Shown: positions 16,091 to 34,372 of the stretch, piece after piece
Layout: the number at the start of each line of letters is the position of its first letter
Numbering within the stretch: the stretch's first letter is position 1
Source: Methylophilus aquaticus
GTDB lineage: Bacteria > Pseudomonadota > Gammaproteobacteria > Burkholderiales > Methylophilaceae
DNA: 64,000 bases
Assembly (NCBI RefSeq): GCF_030769565.1
Contig: NZ_JAVCAP010000026.1
Coordinates: forward strand, 1-64,000
Reading direction: 5' to 3'
The notes under the pieces: generated by a model
Seen by the model: only the letters and a program-made list of their open reading frames with translations
Told to the model about the DNA's origin: nothing
Database searches by the model: none
Program-made: the position numbers and the translations under genes

Positions 16091-16787
16091 ACGGTACCTG
16101 TCCTGAAAGTCTTCTAGTCCAATCCTCAATTGTTTGTGTAGAAAGTCTCTGTTCGAACAATTTTTTCCATCTTGGTACCAGACGAATAGTCAATACTTCC
16201 TCCAGCTCCTGTTGATCAAGAGGATTGATATACAAAAGTTTAAGCAGCCTTTCTAACGGCCAATTTGGGTAAGGCCTTTGTGTAAGCTCAATACTGTGAC
16301 CAGAGGCAAGTAATCCCGGCTGAAGTACTCTGCAATAGAAACCTGTTCTCATGGTTTTCTGCATGAGATTGGCCAAGCCCGGGATTCTGAATTTTTCATT
16401 TACTTTCCAGCATGGCTGACGTGTTTGGGTAACCTCCAGTTTCACGTTGCCGATCGATAAAACATCGCCGAGGCAGATATTCTTTTCAGTAAGTCCCAAA
16501 GTACTCAGATTCTCACCAAACAATCCATGACTCATAAACCTCGTGGTTGGCCCTCTCAGCTCATCCTTCCATTCCGTGTAATGTTCAAATGGATAGATAT
16601 GTATTGCCTTGTCCAAACCACCATGAACATGAACGTCCGCTTGTTCATCGCCTTCTAGGCCCTCGTAATACACGGCAATCTCATTGCGTACTGAGCTTTT
16701 TGAAATGGCGCTGTATGTTCCTGGACAAATAAATGGTTCGGATTTACCGACGCAGACTGCTTGTATAACTCCAATTAAACTTTCCAT
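16074..16787 (-). CDS. MOSC-domain protein (YiiM-like)
   Basis: The protein has 237 residues. The MOSC core has GLEGDEQADVHVHGGLDKAIH and GLFGENLSTLGL, and the conserved Cys lies in TQTRQPCWKVNEKF. A C-terminal 3-alpha extension (PNWPLERLLKLLYI) places it with YiiM-type proteins. MOSC proteins bind molybdenum cofactor or carry sulfur. YiiM/YcbX relatives reduce N-hydroxylated compounds. It starts inside the end of the amidotransferase gene (13-bp overlap), in an operon with an aminotransferase, so an N-oxygenated or amine substrate is plausible. That is inference only. Confidence 0.85.
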   Translation of the reverse strand: MESLIGVIQAVCVGKSEPFICPGTYSAISKSSVRNEIAVYYEGLEGDEQADVHVHGGLDKAIHIYPFEHYTEWKDELRGPTTRFMSHGLFGENLSTLGLTEKNICLGDVLSIGNVKLEVTQTRQPCWKVNEKFRIPGLANLMQKTMRTGFYCRVLQPGLLASGHSIELTQRPYPNWPLERLLKLLYINPLDQQELEEVLTIRLVPRWKKLFEQRLSTQTIEDWTRRLSGQVPYERTL

Positions 16788-17518: not shown

Positions 17519-17627
17519 TTAATCTCTCCTTAACCCGCAGTTGGATTCCGATACACGTCAAAAATATGGCTGATGTAAATGTATTAAAGCGGAGAGGTTT
17601 TGTAGTGAGCCTGTTATGGAAAACGAG

Positions 17628-17652
17628 ATGGTCCAAAGTGTGCTGGACCCAT
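17628..17652. promoter_or_regulatory. Candidate MocR operator A
   Basis: ATGGTCCA (17628-17635) and TGGACCCAT (17644-17652) form a near-perfect inverted repeat with an 8-nt spacer. It lies just after the mocR stop codon and 110-134 bp before the amidotransferase start. The same TGGACCCAT is found on the other side of mocR at 19181-19189. Confidence 0.35.
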
Positions 17653-17656
17653 CAAA

Positions 17657-19084: not shown

Positions 19085-19121
19085 GCCTCCCTCAATTTCT
19101 CCAGCATCTTGGCTCTAAAGC

Positions 19122-19226
19122 CTGGCTGGTCTTAATTGATAGTTTACATATGGTTTTATGGCCCAGGAGTTTTTTATCATTGGACCCATGAAGATTTGAA
19201 TTCTGGCTGGTTTTCTATTGGATCCA
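19122..19226. promoter_or_regulatory. Candidate MocR operator region B between mocR and xoxF
   Basis: The 231-bp divergent spacer holds a direct repeat CTGGCTGGTYTT (19122-19133, 19203-19214), ATGGCCCA (19158-19165), TGGACCCAT (19181-19189) and TGGATCCA (19219-19226). The 9-mer TGGACCCAT is shared with the site beyond mocR. Promoter boxes are not clear enough to call. Confidence 0.35.
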
Positions 19227-19315
19227 GATAGCTACAGTAAGCGCACTGATTAAATCAGTAAATCCCAGAATACCGGGAGATCTAAAAGCAAGACTATCAC
19301 AAATGGAGATAATCA

Positions 19316-21190
19316 ATGAAAGCTAAATCAACCTTACTGGCAGTCGGGGCACTAGCTAGTGCATTAGGCTTTATTTCAGTTTCGCATGCTGAAACTGATT
19401 TGGAGGCAGCAATGAAGAACCCAAACAACTGGGCCCATCCCCGTGGCCAGTACAATAACCAAGGCTATAGCACCTTAAATCAAATCAACACGACAAACGT
19501 GAAAAATTTGAAGACTCAATGGTCGTTTGCAACGGGTGTTAATCGCGGACATGAAGGTTCACCGGTAGTTGTTGATGGTGTTATGTACATCATCACTGCA
19601 TTTCCAAACAATGTGTATGCGCTAGATCTGAATGATAGCCAGAAGATTCTCTGGTCCTATTTCCCTAAACAAGAACCAGCAGTGCAAGCTGTTTTGTGCT
19701 GTGACAACGTAAACCGTGGTCTGGGTTACGGGCATGGCAATATTTACCTAGTGCAGAATGATGGCATGGTTGTAGCTCTGAATGCTAAAACTGGCGCCAA
19801 AGTTTGGGATCAACGCGTTGTAGATTACAAGGTTGGTGGTACGTTAACTGCAGCTCCGCACGTAATCAAAGATAAAGTAATTGTTGGTTGCTCAGGCGCC
19901 GAGTTCGGTTTGCGTTGCTACATGACAGCATACAACGCTAAAGATGGTTCAATTGCATGGCGTGCCTACAGCACGGGTTCAGATCAAGATGCATTAATTG
20001 GTGAGGGCTTTAACGCTGACAACCCACATTACAGCGCGTTGTCTGTTTACCAAGATGTAAACGGCGGTAACAAAGAAGGCGGTTCATTCAAAGCTTTGAA
20101 GAAAGAGCAACTCCAGTATCCAGAAAAGGATTTGGGCACTAGAACTTGGTTGAAACCACAAGCAATCAAAAATGGTTGGGAGCATGGTGGTGGTTCAATC
20201 TGGGGTTGGTACTCATTCGATCCTAAAACTAACCTAGTCTATTACGGTACTGCCAACCCATCCGTTTGGAACCCGGATGTACGTCCTGGCGACAACAAAT
20301 GGACAATGACTATTTTTGCCCGTGATGTTGATACAGGTATGGCTAAATGGGGTTATCAAAAAACACCTCATGACGAGTGGGATTACGATGGTGTGAACGA
20401 AATTATCTTGTTCGATAAAAACAACAAGACATATGCATGGCACCATGACCGTAATGGTTTTGCATATACCTTTGAAGCAAAGACAGGTACTTTGGTTGTA
20501 GCTGAAAAAGTACATCCATTTGTAAACTGGGCAAGCAAGGTTGATCTTAAAACCGGCATTCCTGACAAACTCGCTTCAGGGTCTACTCACCAAGATTACA
20601 ACGCAAAAGGTATTTGTCCTGCAGCACAAGGTACGAAAGATCAGCAACCCGCAGCTTACTCACCAAGAACCGGTTATATGTATTCTCCACTCAATCACTT
20701 ATGTATGACATATGAGCCAGTTGAGTCCAAATATATTGCAGGTCAACCTTGGGTAGGTGCGACATTAACAATGTTCCCTGGTCCTGATGGCGTAATGGGC
20801 GGTTTTGCTGCCTATAACCCAATGAATGGTAAAAATGTCTGGTACAACAAAGAGAAGTTCTCTACTTGGAGTGGCGCTCTGACATCTGCTGGTGACATTG
20901 TGTTCTACGGAACTTTGGATCGTTGGTTTAAGGCTGTGGATGCTAAGTCCGGTAAAGAGCTTTGGAAAATTCAAGTGGGTTCAGGCGTTGTTGGAAACGC
21001 ATTCACCTATGGTAATAAAGGCAAGCAATACGTAGGCGTTTACTCAGGTATTGGTGGCTGGGCAGGTGTTGCTATGAACCTTGGTATGACGAACGACACT
21101 GACGCCTTGGGCGCTAGTGGTGCTTACAAAGAGTTGACCAAATATAACGCTGCTCCTGGTGGTGGTGCTTTGAATGTTTTCTCTATATAA
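19316..21190 (+). CDS. xoxF: Lanthanide-dependent methanol dehydrogenase XoxF
   Basis: This is a 624-residue periplasmic PQQ quinoprotein that oxidises methanol to formaldehyde (or formate), passing electrons to a cytochrome c. A signal peptide ends at VSHA (25). The eight-bladed propeller has the adjacent-Cys disulfide Cys128-Cys129 in VLCCDNVNRG over PQQ. Expected metal ligands are Glu196, Asn314 and catalytic Asp356, plus Asp358 in WDYDGVNE. That second Asp marks rare-earth XoxF; MxaF has Ala there. No xoxJ or xoxG gene follows within the window. ATG follows TGGAGATAATC. A strong terminator ends the unit. Confidence 0.95.
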   Translation: MKAKSTLLAVGALASALGFISVSHAETDLEAAMKNPNNWAHPRGQYNNQGYSTLNQINTTNVKNLKTQWSFATGVNRGHEGSPVVVDGVMYIITAFPNNVYALDLNDSQKILWSYFPKQEPAVQAVLCCDNVNRGLGYGHGNIYLVQNDGMVVALNAKTGAKVWDQRVVDYKVGGTLTAAPHVIKDKVIVGCSGAEFGLRCYMTAYNAKDGSIAWRAYSTGSDQDALIGEGFNADNPHYSALSVYQDVNGGNKEGGSFKALKKEQLQYPEKDLGTRTWLKPQAIKNGWEHGGGSIWGWYSFDPKTNLVYYGTANPSVWNPDVRPGDNKWTMTIFARDVDTGMAKWGYQKTPHDEWDYDGVNEIILFDKNNKTYAWHHDRNGFAYTFEAKTGTLVVAEKVHPFVNWASKVDLKTGIPDKLASGSTHQDYNAKGICPAAQGTKDQQPAAYSPRTGYMYSPLNHLCMTYEPVESKYIAGQPWVGATLTMFPGPDGVMGGFAAYNPMNGKNVWYNKEKFSTWSGALTSAGDIVFYGTLDRWFKAVDAKSGKELWKIQVGSGVVGNAFTYGNKGKQYVGVYSGIGGWAGVAMNLGMTNDTDALGASGAYKELTKYNAAPGGGALNVFSI

Positions 21191-22122: not shown

Positions 22123-24105
22123 ATGGCAACTCGTGTCGACTTGTGCAACGCCATCCGTGCTCTAAGCATGGACGCTGTACAAAAAGCAAACTCCGGTCAC
22201 CCAGGCGCGCCTATGGGTATGGCTGAAATTGCTGAAGTAGTGTGGAACCACAACCTCAGCCACAATCCAAGCAACCCGCAATGGGCTAACCGTGACCGCT
22301 TCGTGTTGTCAAACGGCCATGGCTCCATGCTGATTTACTCCTTGCTGCACCTGACAGGTTACGATGTGTCTATCGACGACATCAAAACTTTCCGTCAATT
22401 GCACTCCAAATGTGCGGGTCACCCTGAGTACAGCTACGCACCAGGCGTTGAAACCACTACGGGTCCATTAGGCCAGGGTATCGCCAACGGCGTGGGTTTC
22501 GCGATGGCTGAAAAGTTGCTGGCTAGCCAGTTCAACAAGCCAGGCCACGACATTGTCGACCACTACACTTATGTGTTCCTGGGCGACGGTTGCATGATGG
22601 AAGGCGTTTCTCACGAAGCTTGCGCACTGGCTGGTACTTGGGGCCTGGGCAAACTGATGGCTTTCTGGGATGACAACGGTATTTCTATCGACGGTCATAT
22701 CGAAGGCTGGTACACAGACGACACCGCTAAACGTTTTGAAGCTTATGGCTGGCACGTTGTATCAGTTGATGGTCACGACCAAGCGGCTATCCAGGCTGCA
22801 GTAGACGCAGCTAAAAAAGTCACTGATAAACCATCACTGATCTGCTGTAAAACCATTATCGGTAAAGGTTCACCAAACAAATCTGGTTCACACGACTGCC
22901 ACGGTTCCGCATTGGGCGAAGCTGAAGTTGCAGCAACCCGTGCTGAAATCGGTTGGGCACACGAGCCATTCGTGATTCCTGCTGACGTATACGCAGGCTG
23001 GGACCAAAAAGCCAAAGGTGCCGAGCGTGAAGCTGCTTGGGATGCTAAATTTGCTGCTTACGCAGCTGCCTACCCAGCAGAAGCTGCTGAATTCAAACGC
23101 CGTATGGCCGGCGAATTGCCAGCTAACTGGAAAGCACTGACCGACGCCATCATCGCTGAAACTAACGAAAAAGCTGAGAAATTGGCTACGCGTCAAGCTT
23201 CACAAAAAGCGATTACTGCGTTGGCGCCAATCTTGCCAGAATTCTTGGGCGGTTCAGCTGACCTGACAGGTTCTAACCTCACAGCAGCTAAAGAGTTCAA
23301 ACACGTGAGCGGTAAAGAGCCAGGCAACTACATCTCTTACGGTGTACGTGAGTTCGGTATGGCTGCGATCATGAACGGTATGGCATTGCACGGTGGCTTG
23401 TTGCCATACGGCGGTACTTTCCACATGTTCTCTGACTACATGAAAAACGGTATGCGTATGTCTGCGTTGATGCATCAACGTGTGGTTTACGTATTGACCC
23501 ATGACTCTATCGGTCAAGGTGAAGACGGTCCTACCCACCAACCAGTAGAAAACACTTCTGGTCTGCGTTTGATTCCTCGTATGGATGTATGGCGTCCAGC
23601 TGACTCTACAGAAACCACCGTTGCTTGGGTGGCTGCAGTAGAGCGCACTGAAGGCCCAACCAGCCTGGTATTAAGCCGTCAAGCAGTGCCAGGCATCAAA
23701 CACGATGCTAAAGACTTCGACTTGATCCGTAAGGGTGGCTACGTGTTCTCTGACGTGGCTGGCGCACAAGTGATCATCATCGCTAACGGTTCCGAGTTGG
23801 ATCTGGCCATTCAAGCAGCTGCTGAATTGAACGCAGCGGGTACTAAAGTGCGTGTGGTTTCCATGCCATCCACCAACGTATTCGACCGTCAAGACCAGGC
23901 ATACAAAGACAGCGTATTGACTCCAGGCGTAAAACGCGTGGCCATTGAAGCTGCTCACCCAGACTTCTGGCGCAAGTATGTTGGTTTAGAAGGTGCTGTT
24001 GTCGGTATCGACACATTCGGTGAGTCTGCTCCAGGCGGCGTACTGTTGAAGCACTTCGGTTTCACAGTTGAAAATGTTGTGAATACCGTAAAAAGCGTTT
24101 TGTAA
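22123..24105 (+). CDS. tkt: Transketolase
   Basis: There are 660 residues from ATG at 22123 with AGGGAGA upstream; the frame continues back to 22042 without a site. It is a thiamine-diphosphate enzyme that moves two-carbon units between sugar phosphates and regenerates ribulose 5-phosphate for the RuMP cycle. It has [11 protein letters not shown] near the N terminus, the ThDP/Mg motif [29 protein letters not shown] in the pyrimidine domain, and [18 protein letters not shown]. The codon usage is very uniform, suggesting high expression. It is probably monocistronic, with a terminator at 24232-24260. Confidence 0.96.
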
Positions 24106-24135
24106 GGATTCACAACATTTCGGCGTAGGCTAACT

Positions 24136-24155
24136 CGCCTTGGATTTCCAAGGCG
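24136..24155. other. Perfect hairpin after tkt without a T-tract
   Basis: CGCCTTGG/CCAAGGCG has an ATTT loop. There is no T-run, so it is not an intrinsic terminator by itself. It may protect the tkt mRNA 3' end. Confidence 0.4.
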
Positions 24156-24231
24156 ATGTTAAGCGAAGCGGCCGAAGCCAAAACGTCCTTGAACAATCTG
24201 TTCTGTAATTTAAAACAGGTTGACCGATAAA

Positions 24232-24260
24232 AACCGCCTCCCAGTGAGGCGGTTTTTTTA
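24232..24260 (+). terminator. Rho-independent terminator of tkt
   Basis: AAACCGCCTC/GAGGCGGTTT with loop CCAGT, followed by a seven-T run. Confidence 0.9.
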
Positions 24261-24356
24261 TGATGATTGACAGATAAACACGCAACGCAAATTGCAATCA
24301 CGTCTCTATCACCCCATTTAATGGTAGTCTGACCACAATTATTAATAGCCCGTATT

Positions 24357-25232
24357 ATGAAAACCCCAAAAAGATTAGAGCCGCTGATTGAAGATGGCGT
24401 GGTAGATGAAGTCATGCGCCAGTTAATGAGCGGCAAAGAAGCCACAGTGTACGTGGTGCGCTGCGGTGAAGAAATTCGCTGCGCCAAGGTGTATAAAGAA
24501 GCCAACAAACGCAGTTTCCGCCAAAGTGTCGATTACACCGAAGGCCGCAAAGTCAAGAGCAGCCGTCAGGCGCGGGCCATGGCCAAAGGCTCAAAATACG
24601 GCAAACAAGCACAAGAAGAAGCCTGGCAAAGCGCTGAGGTCGATGCCCTGTACCGTCTAGCCGCCGCAGGTGTAAGCGTACCCACCCCCTATCAGTTTTA
24701 CGAAGGGGTGTTGATCATGGATTTAGTCACCGACGCCGAAGGCAATGCCGCGCCACGGCTCAACGACGTGGTGTTCACCGCCGAACAAGCCCGCCAGCAC
24801 CACCAGTCGCTGCTCAAAGAAGTTGTGCGCATGCTATGCGCTGGCATCGTCCACGGCGACCTTTCCGAGTTTAATATCCTGCTCAGTGCCCATGGCCCGA
24901 TCATCATCGACTTACCTCAAGCGGTTGATGCCGCAGGTAATAACCACGCCATGAGCATGCTGGAACGCGATGTAGGCAACCTGGCCGATTTTTTTGGTCA
25001 ATTTGCGCCTGAGCTTATCAACACGCACTATGGCAAAGAAATCTGGGCGCTCTACGCAAAAGGTGCCCTCACCCCCGAAACGGTGCTCACTGGCAAATTT
25101 AAACAAGACGATAAACCGGTAGATTTAAAAAGTGTGGTACGCGTGATAGACGCCGTGCGTGAGGATGAAGCCAAAAAGCAAATGCGTTTGGCAGAAGCCA
25201 AAGCAGTGCTGCCCAAGCCTAAACGCTTTTAA
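24357..25232 (+). CDS. RIO-family atypical protein serine kinase
   Basis: The protein has 291 residues. The RIO kinase core is present: GKEATVYVVRCGEEIRCAKV (nucleotide loop with Lys), the catalytic loop GIVHGDLSEFNILL with Asp and Asn, and the metal-binding IIIDLPQAVD. RIO kinases phosphorylate Ser and act in ribosome maturation in archaea and eukaryotes. Bacterial homologues are scattered and poorly studied. The start at 24357 is ATG with no strong ribosome binding site. It is a single gene between the tkt terminator and the hxlR gene, with a Lys/Arg-rich C terminus. Confidence 0.9.
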   Translation: MKTPKRLEPLIEDGVVDEVMRQLMSGKEATVYVVRCGEEIRCAKVYKEANKRSFRQSVDYTEGRKVKSSRQARAMAKGSKYGKQAQEEAWQSAEVDALYRLAAAGVSVPTPYQFYEGVLIMDLVTDAEGNAAPRLNDVVFTAEQARQHHQSLLKEVVRMLCAGIVHGDLSEFNILLSAHGPIIIDLPQAVDAAGNNHAMSMLERDVGNLADFFGQFAPELINTHYGKEIWALYAKGALTPETVLTGKFKQDDKPVDLKSVVRVIDAVREDEAKKQMRLAEAKAVLPKPKRF

Positions 25233-25262
25233 GTACGCTATCTGTTAGTTCCACTATGCGGG

Positions 25263-25670
25263 TTACGCTGACTGATGTTTACGCTCCGCGGAGTGTTGGC
25301 TATGCATGATCTCCGCGAGATTGACTTCTATCCAGTCTGTCAGCGCCTCCACTTTCAGGCTGATGCCTTCGCCTAGCGGCGTCAGCGAGTATTCCACATG
25401 CGGCGGTACAACGGGGTAAGACACCCGTTTTACAAAGCCATCCTGCTCTAATTGTTGCAGCGTTTGGGTGAGCATTTTTTCACTGATCACACCCACTCTG
25501 CGCCGTAGTTCACTGAAGCGTAGTGTCCCGCCCAACAACGCCACCAATACCAATACCCCCCACTGGCTGGTCACGTGCTTCAATATTTCTCGTGAAGGGC
25601 AATCAGGCGAGAGCACTTCTCCGCGTCGCATGGCATTGGCCAATACACCTGTCGTTTCCTCTGTTTTCAT
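25263..25670 (-). CDS. HxlR-family transcriptional regulator
   Basis: The protein has 135 residues. It is a winged helix of the HxlR type: DCPSREILKHVTSQWGVLVL, RFSELRRRVGVISEKMLTQT, and the wing YPVVPPHVEYSLTPLG. A Cys at CPSR near the start of the domain is the redox-sensing position in QorR/YodB-type members. It is divergent from a quinone-reductase-like gene, the same arrangement as ytfH-qorB of enteric bacteria. It likely represses both genes through the palindrome at 25688-25706. Quinones, aldehydes or diamide are the likely inducers, by family knowledge. Confidence 0.88.
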   Translation of the reverse strand: MKTEETTGVLANAMRRGEVLSPDCPSREILKHVTSQWGVLVLVALLGGTLRFSELRRRVGVISEKMLTQTLQQLEQDGFVKRVSYPVVPPHVEYSLTPLGEGISLKVEALTDWIEVNLAEIMHSQHSAERKHQSA

Positions 25671-25687
25671 ACTTACCTTTTTGTGCG

Positions 25688-25706
25688 TACTTACTTTAAG
25701 TAAGTA
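25688..25706. promoter_or_regulatory. HxlR operator palindrome
   Basis: TACTTACTTTAAGTAAGTA is a perfect inverted repeat with 9-bp arms around one central T. It sits in the 88-bp spacer between the divergent hxlR and qorB-like genes. Confidence 0.75.
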
Positions 25707-25758
25707 TAGATGATAACCTGCGCGTTCTCAATTTATTTCATGTGTTGAAAGGGTGTAT

Positions 25759-26607
25759 ATGATTGTTGTTACCGGTGCTACAGGCCAACTGGGTCGTTTA
25801 GTGATTGAACATTTACTCAAAAAAGTGCCTGCAAGCAGCATTGTGGCTGCGGTGCGTCATGTTGAAAAAGCGCAAGACATCGCGGCATTGGGTGTGCAGG
25901 TACGCTTTGCCGATTACAACCAGCCTGAAAGCTGGGATGCAGCATTGTCAGGCGCAGAAAAAGTCTTGTTGATCTCATCAAGCGAAATCGGCTTGCGCGT
26001 CAAGCAGCATCAAGCCGTGATTGAAGCCGCCAAACGTGCAAACGTAAGCTTATTGGCTTACACCAGCCTGTTACGCGCGGATACTTCGTCACTGGGCCTT
26101 GCCGCTGAACACAAGGCGACCGAAGCCGCGATACAAAGCGCTGGTTTGCCATTTGTGATTTTGCGTAATGGTTGGTACACGGAAAACTATGCCGCGGGGA
26201 TACCAGCGGCATTGGCATTGGGCGCAGTGTATGGTGCGGCAGGGCAAGGCAAGATCTCGGCTGCAGCACGCGCTGACTATGCAGAAGCGGCCAGTGTGGT
26301 ACTGACGACGGATCACCACGCAGGCAACGTGTATGCATTGGCAGGTGACACGGCATTTACGCTGGACGAGTTTGCCGCCGAACTCTCACGCCAAACCGGT
26401 AAAGCTATCCCCTACGTAAATCTACCCCAAGCCGAATATAAAAAAGCATTACTCAATGCAGGCTTGCCTGAGCCCATTGCAGAGTTGCTGTCTGATTCGG
26501 ATGCTGGGGTATCAAACGGTCAGTTATTTAATGATGGCAAGCAATTAAGCCAGCTCATTGGTCGGCCAACCACGGCATTAGAGGTGATCATTAAAGCTGC
26601 ATTATAA
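25759..26607 (+). CDS. qorB: NmrA/QorB-like NAD(P)H-binding quinone oxidoreductase
   Basis: There are 282 residues from ATG at 25759 with GAAAGGG upstream; a GTG at 25753 is inside that site. It is an atypical short-chain dehydrogenase with the Rossmann motif VVTGATGQLGRLVIEHL, LLISSSEIGLRVKQH, LLAYTSLLRAD and ILRNGWYTENY, as in E. coli QorB (YtfG). That enzyme reduces quinones with NADPH. Length and order of motifs fit the full family. It is divergent from hxlR with a shared operator and is followed by a hairpin terminator. Confidence 0.85.
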   Translation: MIVVTGATGQLGRLVIEHLLKKVPASSIVAAVRHVEKAQDIAALGVQVRFADYNQPESWDAALSGAEKVLLISSSEIGLRVKQHQAVIEAAKRANVSLLAYTSLLRADTSSLGLAAEHKATEAAIQSAGLPFVILRNGWYTENYAAGIPAALALGAVYGAAGQGKISAAARADYAEAASVVLTTDHHAGNVYALAGDTAFTLDEFAAELSRQTGKAIPYVNLPQAEYKKALLNAGLPEPIAELLSDSDAGVSNGQLFNDGKQLSQLIGRPTTALEVIIKAAL

Positions 26608-26667
26608 AATCACAATAAAACTGTGAATTCAGAAGAGTGATTAAACACCTGATTTATCATCTGCAAG

Positions 26668-26701
26668 CCAACAGCCCGCGAAACCGTGAGCTGTTGGTTT
26701 T
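26668..26701 (+). terminator. Terminator after qorB-like gene
   Basis: CCAACAGC/GCTGTTGG with a 14-nt loop is followed by TTTTA. It is 60 bp after the stop. Confidence 0.6.
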
Positions 26702-26782
26702 ATGTTACTCTGAACTGAATGGCACTAATGCTTGAAATGTTGTTTTGCAAGACTTGACCCTCATGGTTTTGCTTGCTTTTTA

Positions 26783-26819
26783 AAGAAAGGTTTAGTAGAT
26801 GGTAATTAAAACCTTTCTT
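26783..26819 (-). terminator. Terminator of the NYN-NACHT operon
   Basis: A perfect 11-bp stem AAGAAAGGTTT/AAACCTTTCTT lies just beyond the NACHT stop codon. A short weak tail (CTTTCTTTAAAAAG) follows on the minus strand. Confidence 0.5.
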
Positions 26820-26825
26820 ACTGAC

Positions 26826-29093
26826 TTAGAAATTTTGAAGAAATTTCTCGAAAGAGCCTTGTGCTGTGGAAACCGCGTGATTAAGTTTTTCCAATGGTTT
26901 ATTTAATTTAAAACGTCTTTGAAGTGGCCCCCCTCGATTTTCAATTTCCGCCATAATTTCTTTAGACAATAGCTTCGATAAGGATTTATCAATAAAACTT
27001 TTTCCATTCTCACCTAATTTAATCAATATTACTGACTCGCTTATGTGAGTGCTTCTCATGAAGTAACGGAGCAACTTCTCAAAGTGTTTTAGTTCATCAT
27101 CAGAGTCGATATCCATTTCTCCAAAAATAGCATCTTGGGTTAATGTAAGGGCTCCTAGCGACTTTAGTTGCATTTGTACTTCAGTTGGATCCCAAAAGTC
27201 GAGGCTTTGCTCAACTAATCTTAAAGTTTCAACTGTGCAATTATTAAACTCGCAATTATTTATGGATGTAGACTTGAAGAATTTTAGCTGTCCAAAAGTG
27301 CATTCGTTGAAGTGACAGTTAATTAAGGACGTTTCCTCTAAAGAAGTTGGTGAGAAGTAGCAGTTTATAAAGTTAATGTCTGCTAAATTTTTATCTTTTA
27401 GAATGTCAGCTGCAAAGGTTAAGTTCTTAATATCAAGCGGGCCAAGACTTTGTTTATTAATTAGCCTAATTATTAAATTGGCGCAATTTTCATGTGTATA
27501 CGAAGCTTGTCCATCAAGAGCGGCAACATCAAGAAAAAACTTTGTTATTGATAAGTAATCAGAAGCATCTTTACGACTAATTGCGTGTAAAAATGCCTCT
27601 TGGCTCTGCTCAGGGAGAATTCCTTTTCTCAGAAGACCCAGGGCTTCATTTTTTGCTCGATCATTTAATGAACTTATTTGAGCTGCAAAACCCTCTCCTA
27701 AGAAAAATAACCTAAACTCATCATGATCAAACTCTACAGCGGATTGTGCATTGGTTGAAGAAACTAGCAATGCGTGGCCTCTTAACCTTTCTCTAATTTG
27801 TTTTGTCTGAAATGGTGTTTTTTTGGTCGTCTCACAATAATAGTCAGATGTAAATTCAAGTAGCTCTCTTTTTAGATAGTCAACTCTCGCCTCCCACATA
27901 CTTACGGCAATGAGTGAAAGCAACTCACAATGCTCGTCAGTTGTCAGTAATGGAATGCCCACATCACCGGATCTATCGATCCACTTTTCTGTGGCTTCTC
28001 TTTCTATAATTCCTTTAACAAAAACCGAGAAGTAATCGCCTCCTGAACCTTGTAGCCGGTCCAGAAAAGATTCTAAGGTTCTGCTCTCAGTAGCAATATC
28101 AATTAACTTATTTACAAGCACAGGTCTTGTTAGAAGAGAGTGATCGATCCCCAATCGATTACTCACTCTCTCATATATCTCATTGTGATTCGTGATATTT
28201 CTTTTTTTGCAATACTCAATAAACTGTTCTTTTTCCCACCTACAAAGCTCTACTTTGCCAAAGCCGACAGCAAATGAGCTAATAGAGTCAAAAAGCTTTT
28301 CTTGCATTTTCAAATTTTCAAATTCGAAGTAAGCTTTTCTTGCCGCAATTACTAAAGCGCCGGTCGAGTTCAATGCTGCAACAAGAATACCCATTGCTGA
28401 TAAAGCCTCACCTGAACTATTTTCAACAAACATTTCTTCAAAACCGTCGAACACTGGCACAATGACTCCCATTCGAACGAGTGCCAGAAAAGAGTTGTAA
28501 TATAAGAATGGAAATCTATATCGATTTTGCAATGCACCTACAGTTATGTCATCGAATCTTAGGAAGTGTCTGCCGCCAAGAGGAATAGGTACTAATAGCC
28601 ACTCAGCTTCATTTCTCGAAAATTTCTCTGCTTGTTGCCTTGCCATTTCATTAATTAAGGAGGTTTTACCTTCTCCGGCGTCACTTGTTATGTACAAAAC
28701 AGATGTTTCAAAGGGACTACGATTTCCTAGAGCTTGAAATGTACTATTCAAGGCATCTGATGTTGGAGTGCTAGTTTCAACTGCCGAGGACTCTAAAGAC
28801 TGTAAAACTCTAGCAATTGGAGATACGAAGTTTGGGGTAGGCTTTATGTTTTCTTTGAGTCTTGAAGCAAGTAACTGTAGATTTGCAAGCCGCTTTATTA
28901 TCCATTGAGTGGCATCTACGAAGATTCCTGTATTTCCTTCATCAACAAAAATATTTCCAAAGTTTTTTGCTGTAATTGTTATCTCTACAATCTCCCCATT
29001 TAGAGAAAACATAATGTTGTTTCTCTCGAACAGAGTTTCTGATCCAGGGTCAGAAAAGGTTGAAATGAGCGATTTAAAGTCATCTATAAGCAT
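26826..29093 (-). CDS. NACHT-like STAND ATPase with C-terminal pentapeptide-like repeats (candidate defence protein)
   Basis: The protein has 755 residues. The P-loop ITSDAGEGKTSL (Lys143, Thr144), Walker B VPVFDGFEEMF (Asp216, Glu219/220) and sensor-type VIAARKAYF (Arg252) give a NACHT-type NTPase. The DGF-E-E form is typical of NLR-like proteins. A helical region follows. Around 560-630 come pentapeptide-like units (NLADINFINCYF, LINCHFNECTFGQLKFF, NNCEFNNC), and then a Lys-rich tail. The N-terminal 120 residues are unrecognised. The gene is much more AT-rich than its surroundings. It follows the NYN nuclease gene by 2 bp, so nuclease and STAND sensor form a likely anti-phage pair. Confidence 0.8.
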   Translation of the reverse strand: MLIDDFKSLISTFSDPGSETLFERNNIMFSLNGEIVEITITAKNFGNIFVDEGNTGIFVDATQWIIKRLANLQLLASRLKENIKPTPNFVSPIARVLQSLESSAVETSTPTSDALNSTFQALGNRSPFETSVLYITSDAGEGKTSLINEMARQQAEKFSRNEAEWLLVPIPLGGRHFLRFDDITVGALQNRYRFPFLYYNSFLALVRMGVIVPVFDGFEEMFVENSSGEALSAMGILVAALNSTGALVIAARKAYFEFENLKMQEKLFDSISSFAVGFGKVELCRWEKEQFIEYCKKRNITNHNEIYERVSNRLGIDHSLLTRPVLVNKLIDIATESRTLESFLDRLQGSGGDYFSVFVKGIIEREATEKWIDRSGDVGIPLLTTDEHCELLSLIAVSMWEARVDYLKRELLEFTSDYYCETTKKTPFQTKQIRERLRGHALLVSSTNAQSAVEFDHDEFRLFFLGEGFAAQISSLNDRAKNEALGLLRKGILPEQSQEAFLHAISRKDASDYLSITKFFLDVAALDGQASYTHENCANLIIRLINKQSLGPLDIKNLTFAADILKDKNLADINFINCYFSPTSLEETSLINCHFNECTFGQLKFFKSTSINNCEFNNCTVETLRLVEQSLDFWDPTEVQMQLKSLGALTLTQDAIFGEMDIDSDDELKHFEKLLRYFMRSTHISESVILIKLGENGKSFIDKSLSKLLSKEIMAEIENRGGPLQRRFKLNKPLEKLNHAVSTAQGSFEKFLQNF

Positions 29094-29095
29094 GA

Positions 29096-29830
29096 TTACA
29101 ATTCCAATTCAGTTAAGCGTGTACCAATTCCCGTTTGTTGTTGTATTTGTAGTCGGTGTTTGGGGTGAAGTCTGTAAATTTGAGAACCATTTAATAGGGC
29201 TGTACGTATTGGTGGCAAGAAATCGTCATCATTGCTTACTAGCATAATATGGATATTACTATTACTTTGGGAAGCATAAATCAAATCACATGTCAGCATT
29301 GTGTCTACAATTTTCTGCTCATGTCTGTAAACTAATTCGCAGCTAGTAGTGCTGCATGTATCAATAGGGCACTTATTTTTTTGGAGGAGTTTTTTTGCCA
29401 AATGAAGAATGCACGATGAATTAGTGCAGCCCACATCTAGAGGTTTAGCAAAACGAATATTACTTGGAACCGCCTTTTTTCTAAATGTATTGAATAGGTG
29501 GTGGCTGGGTTCTTGATACAAAGCAAAAGCAAGCTCAGCATTTGTTCTAAATTGAATCAATCTACCTTCTGATAAAGGTATTTTGATTATTGCAGGGAAC
29601 TCTTCCTGGATACGAATTGATACGTCTTGTGCCAAGTGCGTCATCAAGGCTTCTTCATACCAACCGCCATATATGCGAACCTCACATGTTCCTAAAGTTG
29701 CAGAAATGGATTTTGGAAGGTGTGAAAGTGCTTTAGTGATAAGACTTAGTATTCCTGATCGCTTGTGATCATCACTAAGATTGTCGTAATCCACTAATAT
29801 TAATACGCTGAAGGTGTCATCTGAGACCAA
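29096..29830 (-). CDS. NYN-domain (PIN-like) nuclease, partner of the NACHT ATPase
   Basis: The protein has 244 residues. The NYN pattern is VLILVDYDNLSDD (Asp14, Asp16, Asn17), a central KIVDTMLTCDLIYAS helix, and IMLVSNDDDFLPPIRTAL with Asp201-203, giving the acidic metal site of PIN/FLAP-fold ribonucleases. A Cys-rich insert (GCTNSSC, CPIDTCSTTSC) could hold a metal. No ATG fits: the frame opens with TTG at 29830 after GGATAAC, so the start is uncertain. It is the first gene of a two-gene, AT-rich operon. By context it may be the toxic effector released or activated by the NACHT protein. Confidence 0.78.
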   Translation of the reverse strand: MVSDDTFSVLILVDYDNLSDDHKRSGILSLITKALSHLPKSISATLGTCEVRIYGGWYEEALMTHLAQDVSIRIQEEFPAIIKIPLSEGRLIQFRTNAELAFALYQEPSHHLFNTFRKKAVPSNIRFAKPLDVGCTNSSCILHLAKKLLQKNKCPIDTCSTTSCELVYRHEQKIVDTMLTCDLIYASQSNSNIHIMLVSNDDDFLPPIRTALLNGSQIYRLHPKHRLQIQQQTGIGTRLTELEL

Positions 29831-30098
29831 TTAGTTATCCATTCACTTTAATGTTTTGTGATTTGTAGTGAAGACCATGCACAATTATTGAATATGCCTA
29901 ATCTAACATAATTAAATGAAGCACACTAAATTGTTCGTTTGACTTGAGATCGAAGACTCACAGCGTGTAAAAGCATGGGGTCGGGTCTAGCTATGTAGCA
30001 TTTTGAATGCTTTATTTAACTCAGCTTATGCAGTCATTGCGGCCAATCTTCTATTTTTAAGCTTTGATGCGCTCAAAATGCTTGGTGTTTAGCAACAT

Positions 30099-30406
30099 TT
30101 ATAAACGGTCACGCAACCGTGCCACAATATCCATTTTTTCGTGCAATATGGCCAAAATAATTGCAGAGCATTGGTTTGCGGCACACAAAATACATAATGT
30201 TTGCCAGCAAGCGCCACCCGTAAATTTGGCAAAATATCATGGCAAGTTTTATAGCTGCTCATACCACTGGCAAGACGGGTAGCGGTGTTCTCAATTTCTG
30301 CTACATACGCCATACACTGCTTTTCGCCTCATTCAGCGCGGGTGTAGCGCACAATCGCCCTTAAATCAGCCTCTGCACTTTTGGTGAGCACATAAGCTGG
30401 CTTCAA
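30099..30406 (-). pseudogene. parE-family toxin, dead by nonsense and frameshift
   Basis: From a TTG at 30406, overlapping the antitoxin stop, the frame reads KPAYVLTKSAEADLRAIVRY and then TRAE, followed by TGA where family members have Trp (EWGE). It then continues GEKQ, AYVAEIENTATRLASG, and LRVALAGKHYVFCVPQTNAL. One base is missing after NAL. In the shifted frame AIILAILHEKMDIVARLR completes the ParE C terminus. Two independent lesions show that the toxin is inactive. Total length (308 bp) equals a full parE minus one base. Confidence 0.8.
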
Positions 30407-30654
30407 CGGTTAGCACTCGCTTGCACTTCATCTTGCACAATCTCGGTGATGCTTAGAGTAGAAACATCGCCACGGTTAGCTTCGCTCAAGCGTTGTAGTA
30501 GCAAGTTTTGCAAATCCGCCAAGCCTTGTGCATCGTCCGCTTGGGGAAATAAACGCTCTAAGGCATATTGTTTAATCGATTTACCTTGCAAAGCCGCAAT
30601 CGCTTTTAAGGTTTGGTGCTGTTGCTCATTGATGTCTATGGTTAATCTGCTCAT
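30403..30654 (-). CDS. ParD-like antitoxin
   Basis: There are 83 residues from ATG at 30654, which follows AAGAGG; the frame extends to 30681 without a site. SRLTIDINEQQHQTLKAIAA with KSIKQYALERL is a ribbon-helix-helix DNA-binding unit, and the acidic C-terminal tail is typical of toxin-binding ParD antitoxins. The toxin gene directly downstream is a pseudogene, so this is an orphan antitoxin. Its retention could be neutral, or it could protect against a parE-like toxin elsewhere. Confidence 0.75.
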   Translation of the reverse strand: MSRLTIDINEQQHQTLKAIAALQGKSIKQYALERLFPQADDAQGLADLQNLLLQRLSEANRGDVSTLSITEIVQDEVQASANR

Positions 30655-30794
30655 CGCAAACCTCTTGAAATATTCACACAATCACACATTAGCACAAATG
30701 TGGGTTTGTTAAAATCGTAAAAAAATAATTTGGATCAGAGTAAATTTAACTGTATTCACCAAATTTTATTGTGGGTGATAAGAGAGCCCCTCAT

Positions 30795-30968
30795 TTAGCA
30801 GTCAACCTGTGGCAGCTCATGCGCTTTTGAAGATTTAGCCAAACGCAAAAAATAAGCAACCTGCTCGACCCATTGCAACCGCTCTAATGGGGTTAATGCC
30901 ATAAAGGCACGCAAGCGTTCTTCACTGACATGGTAAGTTCTTTCGGCTGGATTAAAGGGCGCGTTCAT
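30795..30968 (-). CDS. 57-residue hypothetical protein
   Basis: The short open frame runs from ATG at 30968 (NAPFNPAERTYHVSEERL, RAFMALTPLERLQWVEQVAY, then FLRLAKSSKAHELPQVDC). LTPLERLQWVEQ is a pattern I associate with small proteins next to nucleotidyltransferase-like toxin-antitoxin genes; this is from memory, not a search. The ATG overlaps the stop of the upstream gene remnant as ATGA, the usual junction of a two-gene unit. Composition and junction argue it is or was a real gene. Confidence 0.55.
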   Translation of the reverse strand: MNAPFNPAERTYHVSEERLRAFMALTPLERLQWVEQVAYFLRLAKSSKAHELPQVDC

Positions 30969-31075
30969 AGTGATTTTATTTTCTCTAAATGCTCAATATC
31001 ACTCAGGTCTATTGGGCGGGCGGCAGCACGTTTCATTGAGTAGTGGGGGTAGCCGAGAATAAAATTAAACTGGAT
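30965..31075 (-). pseudogene. 3' remnant of an unrecognised gene upstream of the 57-residue protein
   Basis: After an in-frame stop at 31076-31078, the frame reads FNFILGYPHYSMKRAAARPI followed by DLSDIEHLEKIKSL and ends at 30965 with an ATGA junction. It looks like the C terminus of a larger protein (GxPHYS-KRAAARPID resembles nucleotidyltransferase-type tails). The rest has been replaced by the brnA 3' end. Confidence 0.4.
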
Positions 31076-31343
31076 TCACTTTCTTTAAGGCTTCATTAAT
31101 CCGTGTCTGCCAGCCTGATCCAGTCGCTTTAAATTTTTCCACCACATCATTATCCAGCCGAATATGTACCAGTGTTTTACGGCTACCTATCGGTCGCCCA
31201 CGCATTTTTTTAAACTGGGCATCACTGACTTCAACTGTGTCTGGGTCGGCTAAGATTCCGGCATTGATGCGTGCTTCTTCTGCAGCATCTGGCAGTTCAA
31301 GTTCCAGGTCATTCACTTTTAATGTTTTTGCGGGTTTCGACAT
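31065..31343 (-). CDS. brnA: BrnA antitoxin
   Basis: The protein has 92 residues. The C-terminal ribbon-helix-helix has GRPIGSRKTLVHIRLDNDVV and FKATGSGWQTRINEALKK, the BrnA family signature. BrnA neutralises BrnT and represses the operon. The start lies inside the 3' end of brnT (35-bp overlap), so the pair is translationally coupled in the usual toxin-first order. The last bases overlap an older gene remnant, suggesting integration into a toxin-antitoxin hot spot. Confidence 0.88.
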   Translation of the reverse strand: MSKPAKTLKVNDLELELPDAAEEARINAGILADPDTVEVSDAQFKKMRGRPIGSRKTLVHIRLDNDVVEKFKATGSGWQTRINEALKKVNPV

Positions 31344-31596
31344 ATCTTTTGACCTCTCTGATATTTGCTTTTCGCAAGCTAATCACATGGATATTTTCAT
31401 TCCGCTCAGTATAGACAATGCAATATAAACGCTTCGCAATCGGGGCAAAACCTATCAAACGCATTTCGCCATAGTCATGGCGTTCATCCTCGGCAACAAT
31501 CAATAAATCCCAATCCAACAGTCGGGCCGCCTCTAATGCGATACCGTGCTTTTGCAAATTGGTGATATTTTTGTTTTGCGAGTAACTAAGCTTCAT
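31309..31596 (-). CDS. brnT: BrnT ribonuclease toxin
   Basis: The protein has 95 residues of the DUF497/BrnT family: NKNITNLQKHGIALEAARLL, DERHDYGEMRLIGFAPIAKR, IVYTERNENIHVISLRKANI. The family is a RelE-like ribonuclease that blocks translation. Catalytic-type residues (Lys/His near the N terminus, RKA Arg/Lys near the end) are kept, so it looks active. ATG at 31596 stands two bases from a perfect 18-bp palindrome and has no ribosome binding site. The mRNA may therefore be leaderless or weakly translated. Confidence 0.88.
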   Translation of the reverse strand: MKLSYSQNKNITNLQKHGIALEAARLLDWDLLIVAEDERHDYGEMRLIGFAPIAKRLYCIVYTERNENIHVISLRKANIREVKRYVETRKNIKSE

Positions 31597-31597
31597 A

Positions 31598-31615
31598 TTA
31601 TTGTAATTACAATAA
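31598..31615. promoter_or_regulatory. BrnA operator palindrome
   Basis: TTATTGTAATTACAATAA is a perfect 18-bp palindrome immediately upstream of the brnT start codon, as expected for autoregulation by the BrnT-BrnA complex. Confidence 0.65.
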
Positions 31616-31765
31616 ATAATTAGTCAATGTTGGATTTGTGTGACCATAACATATGTTAATTAATGTTTTGTAAAACATTTTGTTAAGCGACGTACTAAAC
31701 CAATTCCATAAGTACTACTCTCAAATATAATCCTTACTTAACTCTAAAAATTCTCAGGTAAATCC

Positions 31766-34372
31766 ATGCGAACCGAAAACGCTGTTGCACCAAAAACTAT
31801 CTACCTTAAAGACTACACGCCTGCCCCTTATTTGGCGCAGCAGGTGAATTTGAGTTTTAACCTGTTGCCGGGTAAAACCATCGTCACTTCTATCGTGCGC
31901 TATGTGAAAAACCCGGCCGGGGTGTCGGATGATTTGGTGCTGGATGGCGAGGAGCAAAGCATTGTGTCGGTGGCCATCGATGGCCTGCCGTTTACTGGCT
32001 ATACGCTGGCCGATGGGCAGATGACGATTGCCAATCCGGGCAAGGAATTTTCTTTAACCATCGTCAGTGAAATCAACCCGGAGGCGAATACGGCGCTGGA
32101 AGGGTTGTATCAATCTCAAGGCACGTATTGCACACAGTGCGAGGCTGAAGGCTTCAGACGTATTACGTATTGCCAGGATAGGCCGGATGTATTGAGCGTG
32201 TTTACCGTGCGCATAGAGGCGGATGCCGAGGCGTATCCGGTCATGTTGTCGAACGGCAATTTGCAGGATGAAGGTAGTTTGCCAGATGGCAGGCATTACC
32301 GTGTCTGGCATGACCCGTTCCCCAAACCTTGCTATCTGTTTGCGCTGGTGGCGGGTGACTTGGTCCGCGTGGCGGATACGTTTACCACCATGACGGGCCG
32401 CAAGGTGGATTTGCATATTTATGTGCGGGCAGGAGATGAGAGCCAATGTAGCCATGCCATGGCGTCGCTGAAAAAATCGATGCAATGGGATGAAGAAGTG
32501 TATGGCCGCGAGTATCAGCTGGAGCTGTTCAATATTGTGGCGGTGAGCGACTTTAATATGGGCGCGATGGAAAACACCTCGCTTAACGTGTTTAACACTG
32601 CGCTGGTGCTGGCGCATCAGGAAACCGCGACCGATAGCGACTTTATGAGTGTGGAAGGCGTGATCGGCCACGAGTATTTCCACAACTGGACCGGTAACCG
32701 CGTGACTTGTCGTGACTGGTTCCAGCTGTCACTCAAAGAAGGGTTTACCGTGTTCCGCGACCAGGAGTTCAGCGCCGATATGAATTCGCGTGCGGTGTTG
32801 CGCATTGACGATGTGAATGGCCTGCGCCGCTTGCAGTTCCCCGAAGATGGTAGCCCGCTGGCGCACTCGGTGCAGCCTGACCAGTTTATTGAAATCAGCA
32901 ACTTTTACACTAAAACCATTTATGAAAAAGGCGCAGAGCTGATTCGCATGCAGCATACTTTGCTCGGCGCCGCGAACTTTCGCAAGGCGACTGATTTGTA
33001 TTTTGACCGTTTTGATGGTCAGGCGGTGACCTGTGATGACTTTGTGCAGTGCATGGCCGAGGCTTCAGGCCGGGATATGACGCAGTTTTTCAGGTGGTAT
33101 AAACAGGCGGGCACGCCGACCCTGGTCGCCAGCAGCCACTACGACGCGGCGCAGCAACGCTATACGCTCAGCTTTACACAATCGCAGCCGGACACACCGG
33201 GGCAAACGGACAAGCAGCCTTTGCATATGCCGATAGCGGTGGGCTTGCTGGCAGCCGACGGCACTGAGATTGTGCCGACACAAGTGCTTGAAATGACGGA
33301 ACGTGCGCAGTCTTTCACTTTTGATGGCATCGCTGCCAAACCGGTGCCTTCGATCTTGCGTGGCTTTTCGGCGCCGGTGAAGCTGGAGACGGATTTAAGT
33401 GACGATGACCTGCGTTTATTGCAGGTGCATGACACCGATGGCTTTAACAAGTGGGAGGCTGGACAAACGCTGGCGTTGCGGACCATACAGCGTGTGATGG
33501 CTGATCCGCAGGCGGATATCAGCCAGTTTATTGCGGATGTGGGCACCTTGATTGAGCAGGGCCTTGGCGGTCAGGGCGATAAAGCCTTGCTGGCGCGGGC
33601 GTTGAGTTTGCCCATGATAGGTGTGATTGGCCAATATCTGCCGGTGATTGACCCGGCAGCCATTGATGCGGCGCGCACCAGCATCCTTACCCAGCTCAAG
33701 CGTACGCACAAAGAGCGTTTGGAGGCCTTGTATGCGGCAAACCGCGGTACCGGCGCATTTGAAATTACGCCGCAGGCCATGGGCCGTCGCGCCTTGCAGG
33801 AGGCGGTGCTGGATATCCTCACCGTGACCAATGGCACCGGCTGTGCTGCGCGCGCCAAGGCGCATTATGATGCTGCCGACAATATGACAGACCGCGTGAC
33901 TGCGCTGGCGAGTTTGACTGACAGCACACAGCCTGAGCGCGCCGCTGCGTTTGCTGATTTTTATACACGCTTCAAGGCGTATCCGCTGGTCATCGACAAG
34001 TGGTTCTCCTTGCAGGCTTTATCTAAACGCGCGCAGATTTTTGACGACATTGCCATGTTGCGCCAGCATCCGGATTTTAATATCAAAAATCCTAATCGCG
34101 TGCGTTCACTGTATACCGCATTTGCCATTAATAACCCGGTCAAGTTTCATGACCCCAGCGGTCAGGGCTACGCCTTTTTGCGTGATGCGATTATCGAATT
34201 GAATGCCATTAATCCACAAATGGCGGCACGCATGGTGACGCCGCTGCGTGAATGGAAACGCTATGCTCCCGCTTTGCAGGTGCAGATGAAGGCGGCGCTC
34301 GAAGCAGTGCTGACCACCCCGGATTTATCGAACGATGTGTTTGAAGTAGTGAGCAAAAGTTTGAATGGTTAG
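31766..34372 (+). CDS. pepN: Aminopeptidase N (M1 family)
   Basis: The protein has 868 residues. It is a cytosolic zinc aminopeptidase that trims N-terminal residues in peptide turnover. It has GAMEN at 266-270 (substrate binding), the zinc site HEYFHNWTGNR at 302 with Glu325 in LKEGFTVF, and YEKGAELIRM further on. The alpha/alpha PepN-type C-terminal domain (DUF3458-like) fills the rest, giving the expected bacterial PepN length. ATG follows AGGTAAATCC. It is a single gene, convergent with msrA, and marks the return to core genome after the defence island. Confidence 0.95.
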   Translation: MRTENAVAPKTIYLKDYTPAPYLAQQVNLSFNLLPGKTIVTSIVRYVKNPAGVSDDLVLDGEEQSIVSVAIDGLPFTGYTLADGQMTIANPGKEFSLTIVSEINPEANTALEGLYQSQGTYCTQCEAEGFRRITYCQDRPDVLSVFTVRIEADAEAYPVMLSNGNLQDEGSLPDGRHYRVWHDPFPKPCYLFALVAGDLVRVADTFTTMTGRKVDLHIYVRAGDESQCSHAMASLKKSMQWDEEVYGREYQLELFNIVAVSDFNMGAMENTSLNVFNTALVLAHQETATDSDFMSVEGVIGHEYFHNWTGNRVTCRDWFQLSLKEGFTVFRDQEFSADMNSRAVLRIDDVNGLRRLQFPEDGSPLAHSVQPDQFIEISNFYTKTIYEKGAELIRMQHTLLGAANFRKATDLYFDRFDGQAVTCDDFVQCMAEASGRDMTQFFRWYKQAGTPTLVASSHYDAAQQRYTLSFTQSQPDTPGQTDKQPLHMPIAVGLLAADGTEIVPTQVLEMTERAQSFTFDGIAAKPVPSILRGFSAPVKLETDLSDDDLRLLQVHDTDGFNKWEAGQTLALRTIQRVMADPQADISQFIADVGTLIEQGLGGQGDKALLARALSLPMIGVIGQYLPVIDPAAIDAARTSILTQLKRTHKERLEALYAANRGTGAFEITPQAMGRRALQEAVLDILTVTNGTGCAARAKAHYDAADNMTDRVTALASLTDSTQPERAAAFADFYTRFKAYPLVIDKWFSLQALSKRAQIFDDIAMLRQHPDFNIKNPNRVRSLYTAFAINNPVKFHDPSGQGYAFLRDAIIELNAINPQMAARMVTPLREWKRYAPALQVQMKAALEAVLTTPDLSNDVFEVVSKSLNG

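Follow-up and report, generated by a model that had tools for sequence, protein, structure and literature searches.

A Candidate Anti-phage Gene Pair in Methylophilus aquaticus: a NACHT-Like ATPase and a Separately Encoded NYN-Domain Nuclease

Introduction

Bacterial NACHT (bNACHT) proteins carry their effector fused at the N terminus of the ATPase chain, or have none that is discernible (clade 14), and clade 6 (bNACHT25) uses a nuclease for the purpose (PMC12169576; here and below, papers are cited for the passages that bear directly on these points). Ribonucleases (RNases) and ATPases have been brought together in other ways as well. A PIN RNase and a NACHT NTPase share one polypeptide in the vWA-MoxR conflict systems (PMC7159879), and PrrC is a latent anticodon nuclease of the EcoprrI restriction-modification (R-M) operon that is held in a complex until phage T4 infects (PMC3874165). 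A CRISPR-associated NYN protein of Bacteroides fragilis is an Mn2+-dependent RNase (PMC11346440). Here we consider a pair of adjoining genes for an NYN-domain nuclease and a NACHT-like ATPase in Methylophilus aquaticus, located in a stretch of 64,000 nucleotides (assembly GCF_030769565.1, contig NZ_JAVCAP010000026.1, positions 1 to 64,000, forward strand) that we will call the window. From comparative analysis of its sequences we judge it probable, with considerable room for doubt, that the pair is a two-gene anti-phage system of the abortive-infection type, in which a sensor resembling the NOD-like receptors (NLRs) would act on an RNase effector supplied in trans.

Pairing of the Two Genes

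Both genes lie on the minus strand. The first (29096..29830; 244 residues, TTG start) encodes an NYN-domain, PIN-like predicted RNase and is recognized by its open reading frame (ORF), a Pfam NYN match and a structural model. The second (26826..29093; 755 residues, ATG start) encodes an ATPase of the NACHT/STAND (signal transduction ATPases with numerous domains) kind, a predicted sensor and switch, recognized by ORF, Foldseek and model. The NYN stop and the ATPase start are 2 bp apart by measurement (29094..29095), and the extent of the pair and the gap are as an earlier sequence-only reading of the window had given them. Taken together, the comparisons below show the NYN gene and the NACHT-type ATPase gene to be, at the level of sequence, an evolutionary unit with intact active-site residues.

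That reading had also named a search for such pairs in other genomes as a check, and the two genes do co-occur elsewhere, with one explained exception among the testable loci. A first scan of viral contigs returned four loci, and a genome scan with a five-sequence alignment returned 36, holding 35 distinct ATPases (L028 and L029 have identical proteins). An NYN frame is in place at 33 of these 36, on the opposite strand in L038 and in two pieces in L025; L040 has an NYN fragment directly upstream of the ATPase, L035 begins at its contig end, so that the upstream side is cut, and L034 has no NYN gene in the 3 kb upstream of the ATPase. The genome of L034, a Cloacimonetes metagenome-assembled genome (MAG; G538), holds a single ATPase gene and one NYN frame, both open, on different contigs (C85 and C15, our loci L034/L100 and L090), the NYN frame standing beside housekeeping genes. 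This resolves the exception in part, mis-binning of a contig being possible, and the separation is a natural hint that ATPase and NYN can work in trans. Among five IMG/VR contigs, NYN lies beside the ATPase in four (once split in two frames) and the fifth begins at the ATPase; L044 and L009 have identical ATPases.

Broader sampling gave the same picture. The ATPase was found in 2 of 246 and 7 of 296 genomes of two phylum samples, and all nine loci have NYN upstream, one of them cut by a contig end; four of the nine are proteins of the earlier scan, and five are new, with 27-60% identity to earlier ones. Conversely, full-length NYN occurs in three of 398 genomes of the window's phylum, each time adjoining an ATPase, and the ATPases of the two other than the window's are identical over 498 residues to those of L017 and L018 (each of the three counts includes the genome on which the sample was centred). 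Short C-terminal NYN matches in four more of the 398 genomes (E 7e-7 to 7e-8) were set aside as other NYN families. The junction measures 2 bp in 14 of 35 cases (two identical-sequence pairs among them), with a range of -11 to +12, and the 2-bp spacing suggests translational coupling. The distance matrices of the two proteins are correlated over 25 loci (r = 0.86; none of 2000 permutations as high) and inside two subgroups (r = 0.82 and 0.73). A divergent ATPase, L099, which matches the family profile at E 3e-67 with 27% identity to its nearest relative, also has an NYN gene upstream (E 1e-23), which suggests that the pairing predates the core family. At L006 (4286-4998), L098, L025 and L040 the NYN or the ATPase frame is broken or split, through either decay or assembly error.

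The Predicted Nuclease

The window NYN protein matches Pfam NYN at E 5.6e-4, which taken alone falls below the Pfam cut-off, and the family assignment proposed earlier is carried by its relatives, of which 25 among 27 aligned members match at E <= 0.01 (best 1.6e-8). D14, D176, D201 and D203 are kept in all 27 aligned proteins, and the D176-D201 spacing is 25 in the window protein and 23-26 over the family. The B. fragilis protein has the triad D13/D118/D143, of which the D13A mutant is inactive, and its D118-D143 step is likewise 25, so that D14, D176 and D201 of the window protein correspond to that triad (PMC11346440). By conservation and by this match, D14 (29789..29791, minus strand) is a predicted metal-binding catalytic residue together with D176 and D201. 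Because the aspartate triad is present we predict RNase chemistry, and the protein looks active.

The cysteine-rich insert that the sequence-only reading had remarked upon is real. Its four cysteines (C135-x4-C140-x13-C154-x4-C159; residues 135-159, 29354..29428, minus strand) form a zinc-finger-like motif between the N-terminal and C-terminal NYN motifs; in the alignment C135, C140 and C154 are present in 27 of 27 proteins and C159 in 21 of 27. The C4 motif or a near variant was detected by script in 25 of the 27 rows, and inspection of the alignment shows it in the remaining rows, L010 and L029, as well. The insert may confer substrate specificity or touch the ATPase. The NYN model is confident, with a predicted local distance difference test (pLDDT) score of 88.3, and a profile search of Protein Data Bank (PDB) sequences with NYN returned nothing relevant.

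The ATPase

The ATPase begins with an N-terminal domain (residues 1-125), which is followed by a NACHT module; pentapeptide repeats occupy residues 551-635 or thereabouts, and the chain ends in a helical part. Walker A (SDAGEGKTS, residues 137-145, 28659..28685, minus strand) and Walker B (VFDGFEEM, residues 214-221, 28431..28454, minus strand) can be read directly and are conserved, with G140, E141, G142, K143, T144, D216, G217, F218, E219 and E220 invariant in 37 of 37 aligned ATPases. The Walker B consensus, which we take to be DGxDE-like, here reads DGFEE. A model built from the 37-row alignment (mean pLDDT 85.6, predicted template modelling score 0.61) matched 108 PDB chains in Foldseek at E <= 1e-3, the best being NLRC4 at E 1.7e-11, and the leading matches are all animal NLRs (NLRC4, NOD2, NLRP2, NLRP3, NAIP5). 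Template modelling (TM) scores are low, about 0.2-0.4, and the whole-chain overlay is therefore poor. The earlier label of a NACHT-like ATPase is thus borne out by fold, not by the Pfam NACHT model.

The flanking parts of the chain are less familiar. The N-terminal domain (28719..29093, minus strand), which the sequence-only reading had not recognized either, has no Pfam match over residues 1-125 and no known effector domain in Pfam, NCBIfam or PADLOC; it is modelled as strands and helices with block pLDDT of 81-94, and we propose it as an adaptor for NYN. Pfam assigns Pentapeptide_4 to 32 and nSTAND_NTPase5 to six of the 37 members. In the window protein the Pentapeptide_4 match (E 3.5e-7) covers residues 559-624, in keeping with the pentapeptide-like repeats noted earlier, and the region as a whole (27189..27443, minus strand) is proposed as a sensor or scaffold. 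The helical region at the C terminus, taken from the model's secondary structure (residues 665-755, 26829..27101, minus strand), has R676 and F678 in 37 of 37. When the chain is divided into four blocks, mean distance is highest in residues 481-640 (1.87) and lowest in 126-480 (0.73), which would be the expected pattern if sensing is C-terminal. A profile search of PDB sequences with the ATPase found pentapeptide-type proteins only, and its matches to the SV2 luminal domain and to Qnr/MfpA were rejected as being these pentapeptide repeats.

Surroundings of the Pair

The pair is AT-rich, as had been claimed: the guanine plus cytosine (GC) content is 37-38% over 27001-30000 and about 50% further out. 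A second low-GC stretch (43-47%) lies at 15001-21000 of the window. A promoter and terminator scan gave five promoter-like sites, the shuffle mean being 9.9, and nothing distinctive. The domain scan of the neighbourhood covered eight proteins around the pair. Downstream lie genes for an NmrA-type oxidoreductase and an HxlR regulator; upstream lie a lone ParD-like antitoxin gene (30403-30681), BrnT/BrnA (31065-31596) and then pepN, named by its sequence. No toxin gene was recognized adjoining the ParD-type gene. The flanking toxin-antitoxin genes that the sequence-only reading had placed around the pair are therefore found on one side, whereas the other side is occupied by the oxidoreductase gene.

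This setting invites the suggestion that the pair is itself akin to a toxin-antitoxin module, NYN being a growth-inhibiting RNase that the ATPase keeps in check so as to maintain mobile DNA rather than to sense phage. NYN and PIN nucleases are commonly toxins, the two genes are tightly coupled, and toxin-antitoxin genes are nearby. To our knowledge, however, an NLR-fold ATPase of 755 residues would be unusual as an antitoxin; moreover, genome G538 keeps both genes intact on different contigs, which an addiction pair does not need, and distantly similar sensors pair with a RelA/SpoT-domain gene instead. We regard this explanation as improbable.

The Genus Hotspot and Defence Genes Beside Relatives

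In the genus of the window, pepN is present in 19 of 22 genomes, its own included, and we compared the 12 kb upstream of pepN from 16 relatives. The transketolase gene (tkt) lies 1.8-9.0 kb from pepN in 14 of these 16 regions, and the content of the interval varies. Among nine intervals sampled from the 14 (ten proteins scanned), seven hold a gene that matches the PADLOC library, which is dated 2023. They include Old/AriA-like ATPases (L072, L073, L084), a HEC-04-like ATPase (L079), a GmrSD-type protein (L076), a type VI reverse transcriptase (L078) and a PDC-M34A gene next to an HEPN gene (L075); the proteins scanned from L071 and L081 have no PADLOC match. Neither gene of our pair was found at E <= 1e-5 in any of the 16 regions. 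The site of the pair is a defence hotspot in its genus. Considered as an object in its own right, the tkt-pepN interval (24105-31766 in the window, with L071-L084 in relatives) is a variable island with different defence genes per species, in which two frames (L081 1256-2059 and L071 9703-10836), for which neither Pfam nor PADLOC gave a match at the thresholds applied, are possible undescribed defence genes.

Defence genes also accompany the pair elsewhere. PADLOC was run in batches on 107 chosen neighbour ORFs, which came from viral contigs and from 31 of the 36 genome loci, and on ten ORFs singly; the batch results are those among the 25 commonest families listed per batch. At L007, L008, L015 and L021 the pair is built into a type I R-M operon, all on one strand, and the genes read hsdM (seen in three), hsdS, NYN, ATPase, hsdR. 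L007 and L008 have one to three extra frames between ATPase and hsdR, and in L008, L015 and L021 the hsdS stop and the NYN start are no more than a few bp apart. PADLOC counted four restriction and four specificity subunits, L008 and L015 being also checked singly. L027, L030 and L036 adjoin type IIG enzymes; one scanned protein matches Dsr1 and is by motif the SIR2 protein of L030 (assigned by eye). Gabija genes, GajA and GajB, neighbour L022, and an NsnA-like, GmrSD-type gene neighbours L023. A pAgo-model match by L016 (E 1e-15) and two unassigned PDC-S11 matches fall outside our tally of loci with a named defence neighbour. The defensive setting, seen both in relatives and within the genus of the window, lends support to the candidate anti-phage role that the sequence-only reading had put forward.

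The copies embedded among hsd genes recall PrrC, and restriction guarding is for that reason the leading alternative trigger. The pair would then watch a type I R-M enzyme and not the phage directly; the ATPase would hold NYN silent, and phage anti-restriction proteins would release NYN by disturbing the complex. That the pair shares a strand with hsdS and hsdR and lies between them at four loci favours such an arrangement, as does the precedent of PrrC itself (PMC3874165). Guarding in trans is possible for the window genome, which carries two genes for type I specificity subunits on contigs other than that of the pair; since type I systems are common, with 9 of 14 control genomes matching, these genes say little. 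Furthermore, the PrrC-like embedding is confined to 4 of 36 loci, the window locus is not among them, and no hsd gene was found among the eight proteins scanned around the window pair. On balance we consider a PrrC-like guard unlikely as an account of the pair.

Distribution and Mobility

The ATPase tree holds 32 grouped rows in ten phylum-level groups, some phyla being scattered and others clustered. Pseudomonadota require five changes, of which at least four are forced by starred branches. Because many of the tree rows are MAGs, bin errors in this distribution are possible. The window ATPase groups with L003, L005, L006, L009 and L011 (95% support in the Shimodaira-Hasegawa-like approximate likelihood ratio test, SH-aLRT). 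Three of these (L003, L005, L006) are IMG/VR contigs, a fourth (L009) carries the same ATPase as an IMG/VR contig, and in L011 a frame resembling an integrase can be seen by eye. In all, carriage of the pair by prophages is represented by five IMG/VR contigs. Among 149 relatives of the window genome, its own included, the single other match is weak and spans 55 residues, and there is no full-length copy in the other 148. A search with NYN, confined to plasmid records, gave no match, nor did a DNA search of Escherichia coli genomes with L006 only. The lack of a close copy in these protein searches of phage and plasmid records and in the E. coli search may explain why screens built on such sources missed the pair.

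The same data bear on a role outside defence, in which the ATPase would assemble NYN as a processing enzyme in an RNA maintenance or stress pathway. Housekeeping genes are the only neighbours seen by eye at L042, L034 and L024, and the CRISPR-associated NYN protein has been proposed to trim CRISPR RNA (PMC11346440), both of which fit such a function. The patchy presence of the pair (2/246, 7/296 and 3/398 genomes), the lack of a full-length copy in 148 relatives and its occurrence at a defence hotspot, within R-M operons and on prophages do not, and we hold a maintenance role to be very improbable.

A Proposed Mechanism and Its Difficulties

The anti-phage reading draws on the coupling of the two genes, the NLR fold and the conserved predicted catalytic residues, and on the hotspot site, the type I R-M operons and other defence neighbours, the prophages and the patchy distribution. 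If it is correct, the ATPase would rest as a monomer in the ADP state until infection is reported, either by its pentapeptide and C-terminal part or by a guarded host complex, for example a type I R-M enzyme. The NACHT module would then swap nucleotide and assemble, as NLRs and bacterial NACHT proteins do. We infer these sensing-to-assembly steps by analogy with bNACHT proteins (PMC12169576) and, partly from general knowledge, with animal NLRs. The N-terminal domain of some 120 residues would take the place of a fused effector, and we suppose that it is through residues 1-125 that the separate NYN protein is recruited or clustered. Clustered NYN would cleave RNA by means of metal ions on D14, D176 and D201, whereupon growth or phage expression would stop.

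A number of observations weigh against this proposal. Pfam NACHT is matched by none of the 37 ATPase members, so that fold and motifs are what support the NACHT label; the NYN model had no Foldseek match in the PDB at E <= 1e-3. With E values of up to 10 allowed, PADLOC recognizes no family in the ATPase; its sole match to NYN is HEC-09 (E 0.014). A named defence neighbour is present at 9 of 36 loci (31 scanned), a count without a background rate from random loci, and several loci, L042, L024 and L034 among them, have ordinary or housekeeping neighbours only, as judged by eye. Many of the loci are MAG contigs. Protein searches with the ATPase found nothing in 50,697 phage records, and in 72,556 plasmid records their only find was a distant relative, so that the argument for mobility rests on IMG/VR prophage calls and patchy distribution. 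Lastly, the distances of the proposed adaptor domain track those of NYN with r = 0.77, against r = 0.84 for the NACHT module.

A Sister Pair with a RelA/SpoT-Domain Gene

The distant plasmid relative lies on pEA320 of Pantoea ananatis (L101 2590-5596; tblastn E 2e-6) and has a RelA/SpoT-domain gene directly downstream. Six plasmid records hold such relatives, and the four opened (L101-L104, Enterobacterales plasmids) all have the RelA/SpoT partner, with a spacing of -1 to 2 bp; the annotation of one of these proteins reads NACHT. The resemblance to the window family is weak over the NACHT and pentapeptide parts and was not detected over the N-terminal domain. As in the window pair, a NACHT-pentapeptide protein is accompanied by a separate, tightly coupled second gene, but here that gene follows the ATPase gene and encodes an enzyme of a different family. 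The sister pair suggests that effectors are exchangeable. A profile of the N-terminal domain matches the NYN-partnered L099 weakly (E 0.21) and finds nothing in the N terminus of the four RelA/SpoT-partnered proteins (one match at E 6.6 elsewhere in the chain). With the L099 match weak and the RelA/SpoT-partnered proteins lacking one in the N terminus, the domain as an NYN-specific adaptor is neither favoured nor disfavoured.

It is tempting to extend these observations to an undescribed superfamily of trans-acting NLRs, in which a shared NACHT-pentapeptide sensor docks exchangeable effectors (NYN or RelA/SpoT) through its N-terminal domain and some branches guard type I restriction enzymes. 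We advance this as a tentative possibility, more doubtful than not. If true, it would parallel the animal inflammasomes, in which receptor and executioner are separate and joined by an adaptor domain. The copies in type I R-M operons suggest that such sensors can guard restriction enzymes. A widespread pair with its enzyme in a second gene also makes effector recruitment by a bacterial NLR directly testable, with RNase activity as the likely output.

Comparison with Known Systems

An NYN-NACHT gene pair is not a named system in PADLOC, Pfam, NCBIfam or PHROGs, the last giving weak matches only, almost all to families without an assigned function. Hailong was considered and rejected, as the HalA profile covers only the pentapeptide part (residues 553-654) at 36.5 bits, the cut-off being 250, and the partner is NYN, where Hailong has HalB, a nucleotidyltransferase. 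The NCBIfam matches of the ATPase are all weak; HalA is the best of them, followed by Qnr, and both of these lie over the pentapeptide part. The pair was not found described in the literature searched (openly available papers, main text), nor in the passages of PMC8547433 and PMC13414232 retrieved for NYN, and a known system with the same two proteins, which would have counted against the novelty claimed by the sequence-only reading, did not emerge from these libraries and papers. DefensePredictor (PMC13092281) includes validated systems with NACHT and PIN domains; overlap of the pair with one of them is possible.

The remaining systems each share a part of the arrangement. The CRISPR-associated NYN protein of B. 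fragilis type III has the same family and aspartate triad (PMC11346440), whereas the window NYN has a C4 insert and an ATPase partner, and no CRISPR genes were noticed among the neighbour genes scanned or read. PrrC and RloC share the logic of RNase plus ATPase and the embedding in type I R-M operons (PMC3874165, PMC2610378), but unite ATPase and nuclease in one protein where here NACHT and NYN are two. The PIN-NACHT proteins of vWA-MoxR systems are likewise a fused module, in contrast to the stand-alone two-gene unit described here, and no vWA or MoxR gene was noticed near the window pair. Avs (AVAST) proteins are STAND ATPases expected to assemble on sensing infection (PMC9122126), as we propose for the window ATPase, which differs in having no PADLOC match, no fused nuclease and, by Pfam, no tetratricopeptide repeats. 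The bNACHT proteins come closest in plan, with a central NACHT-type STAND ATPase and a C-terminal sensor-like region. The window ATPase has the NACHT module (Walker A, Walker B and the NLR fold) without the effector at the N terminus of the same chain; Pfam finds no NCH1 domain of the bNACHT type in the window family, the domain at its N terminus belongs to no known family, and the effector is a separate NYN gene. In kind, therefore, this is a known sort of protein, a bacterial NLR/STAND ATPase; what is new is that its effector lies in a second gene.

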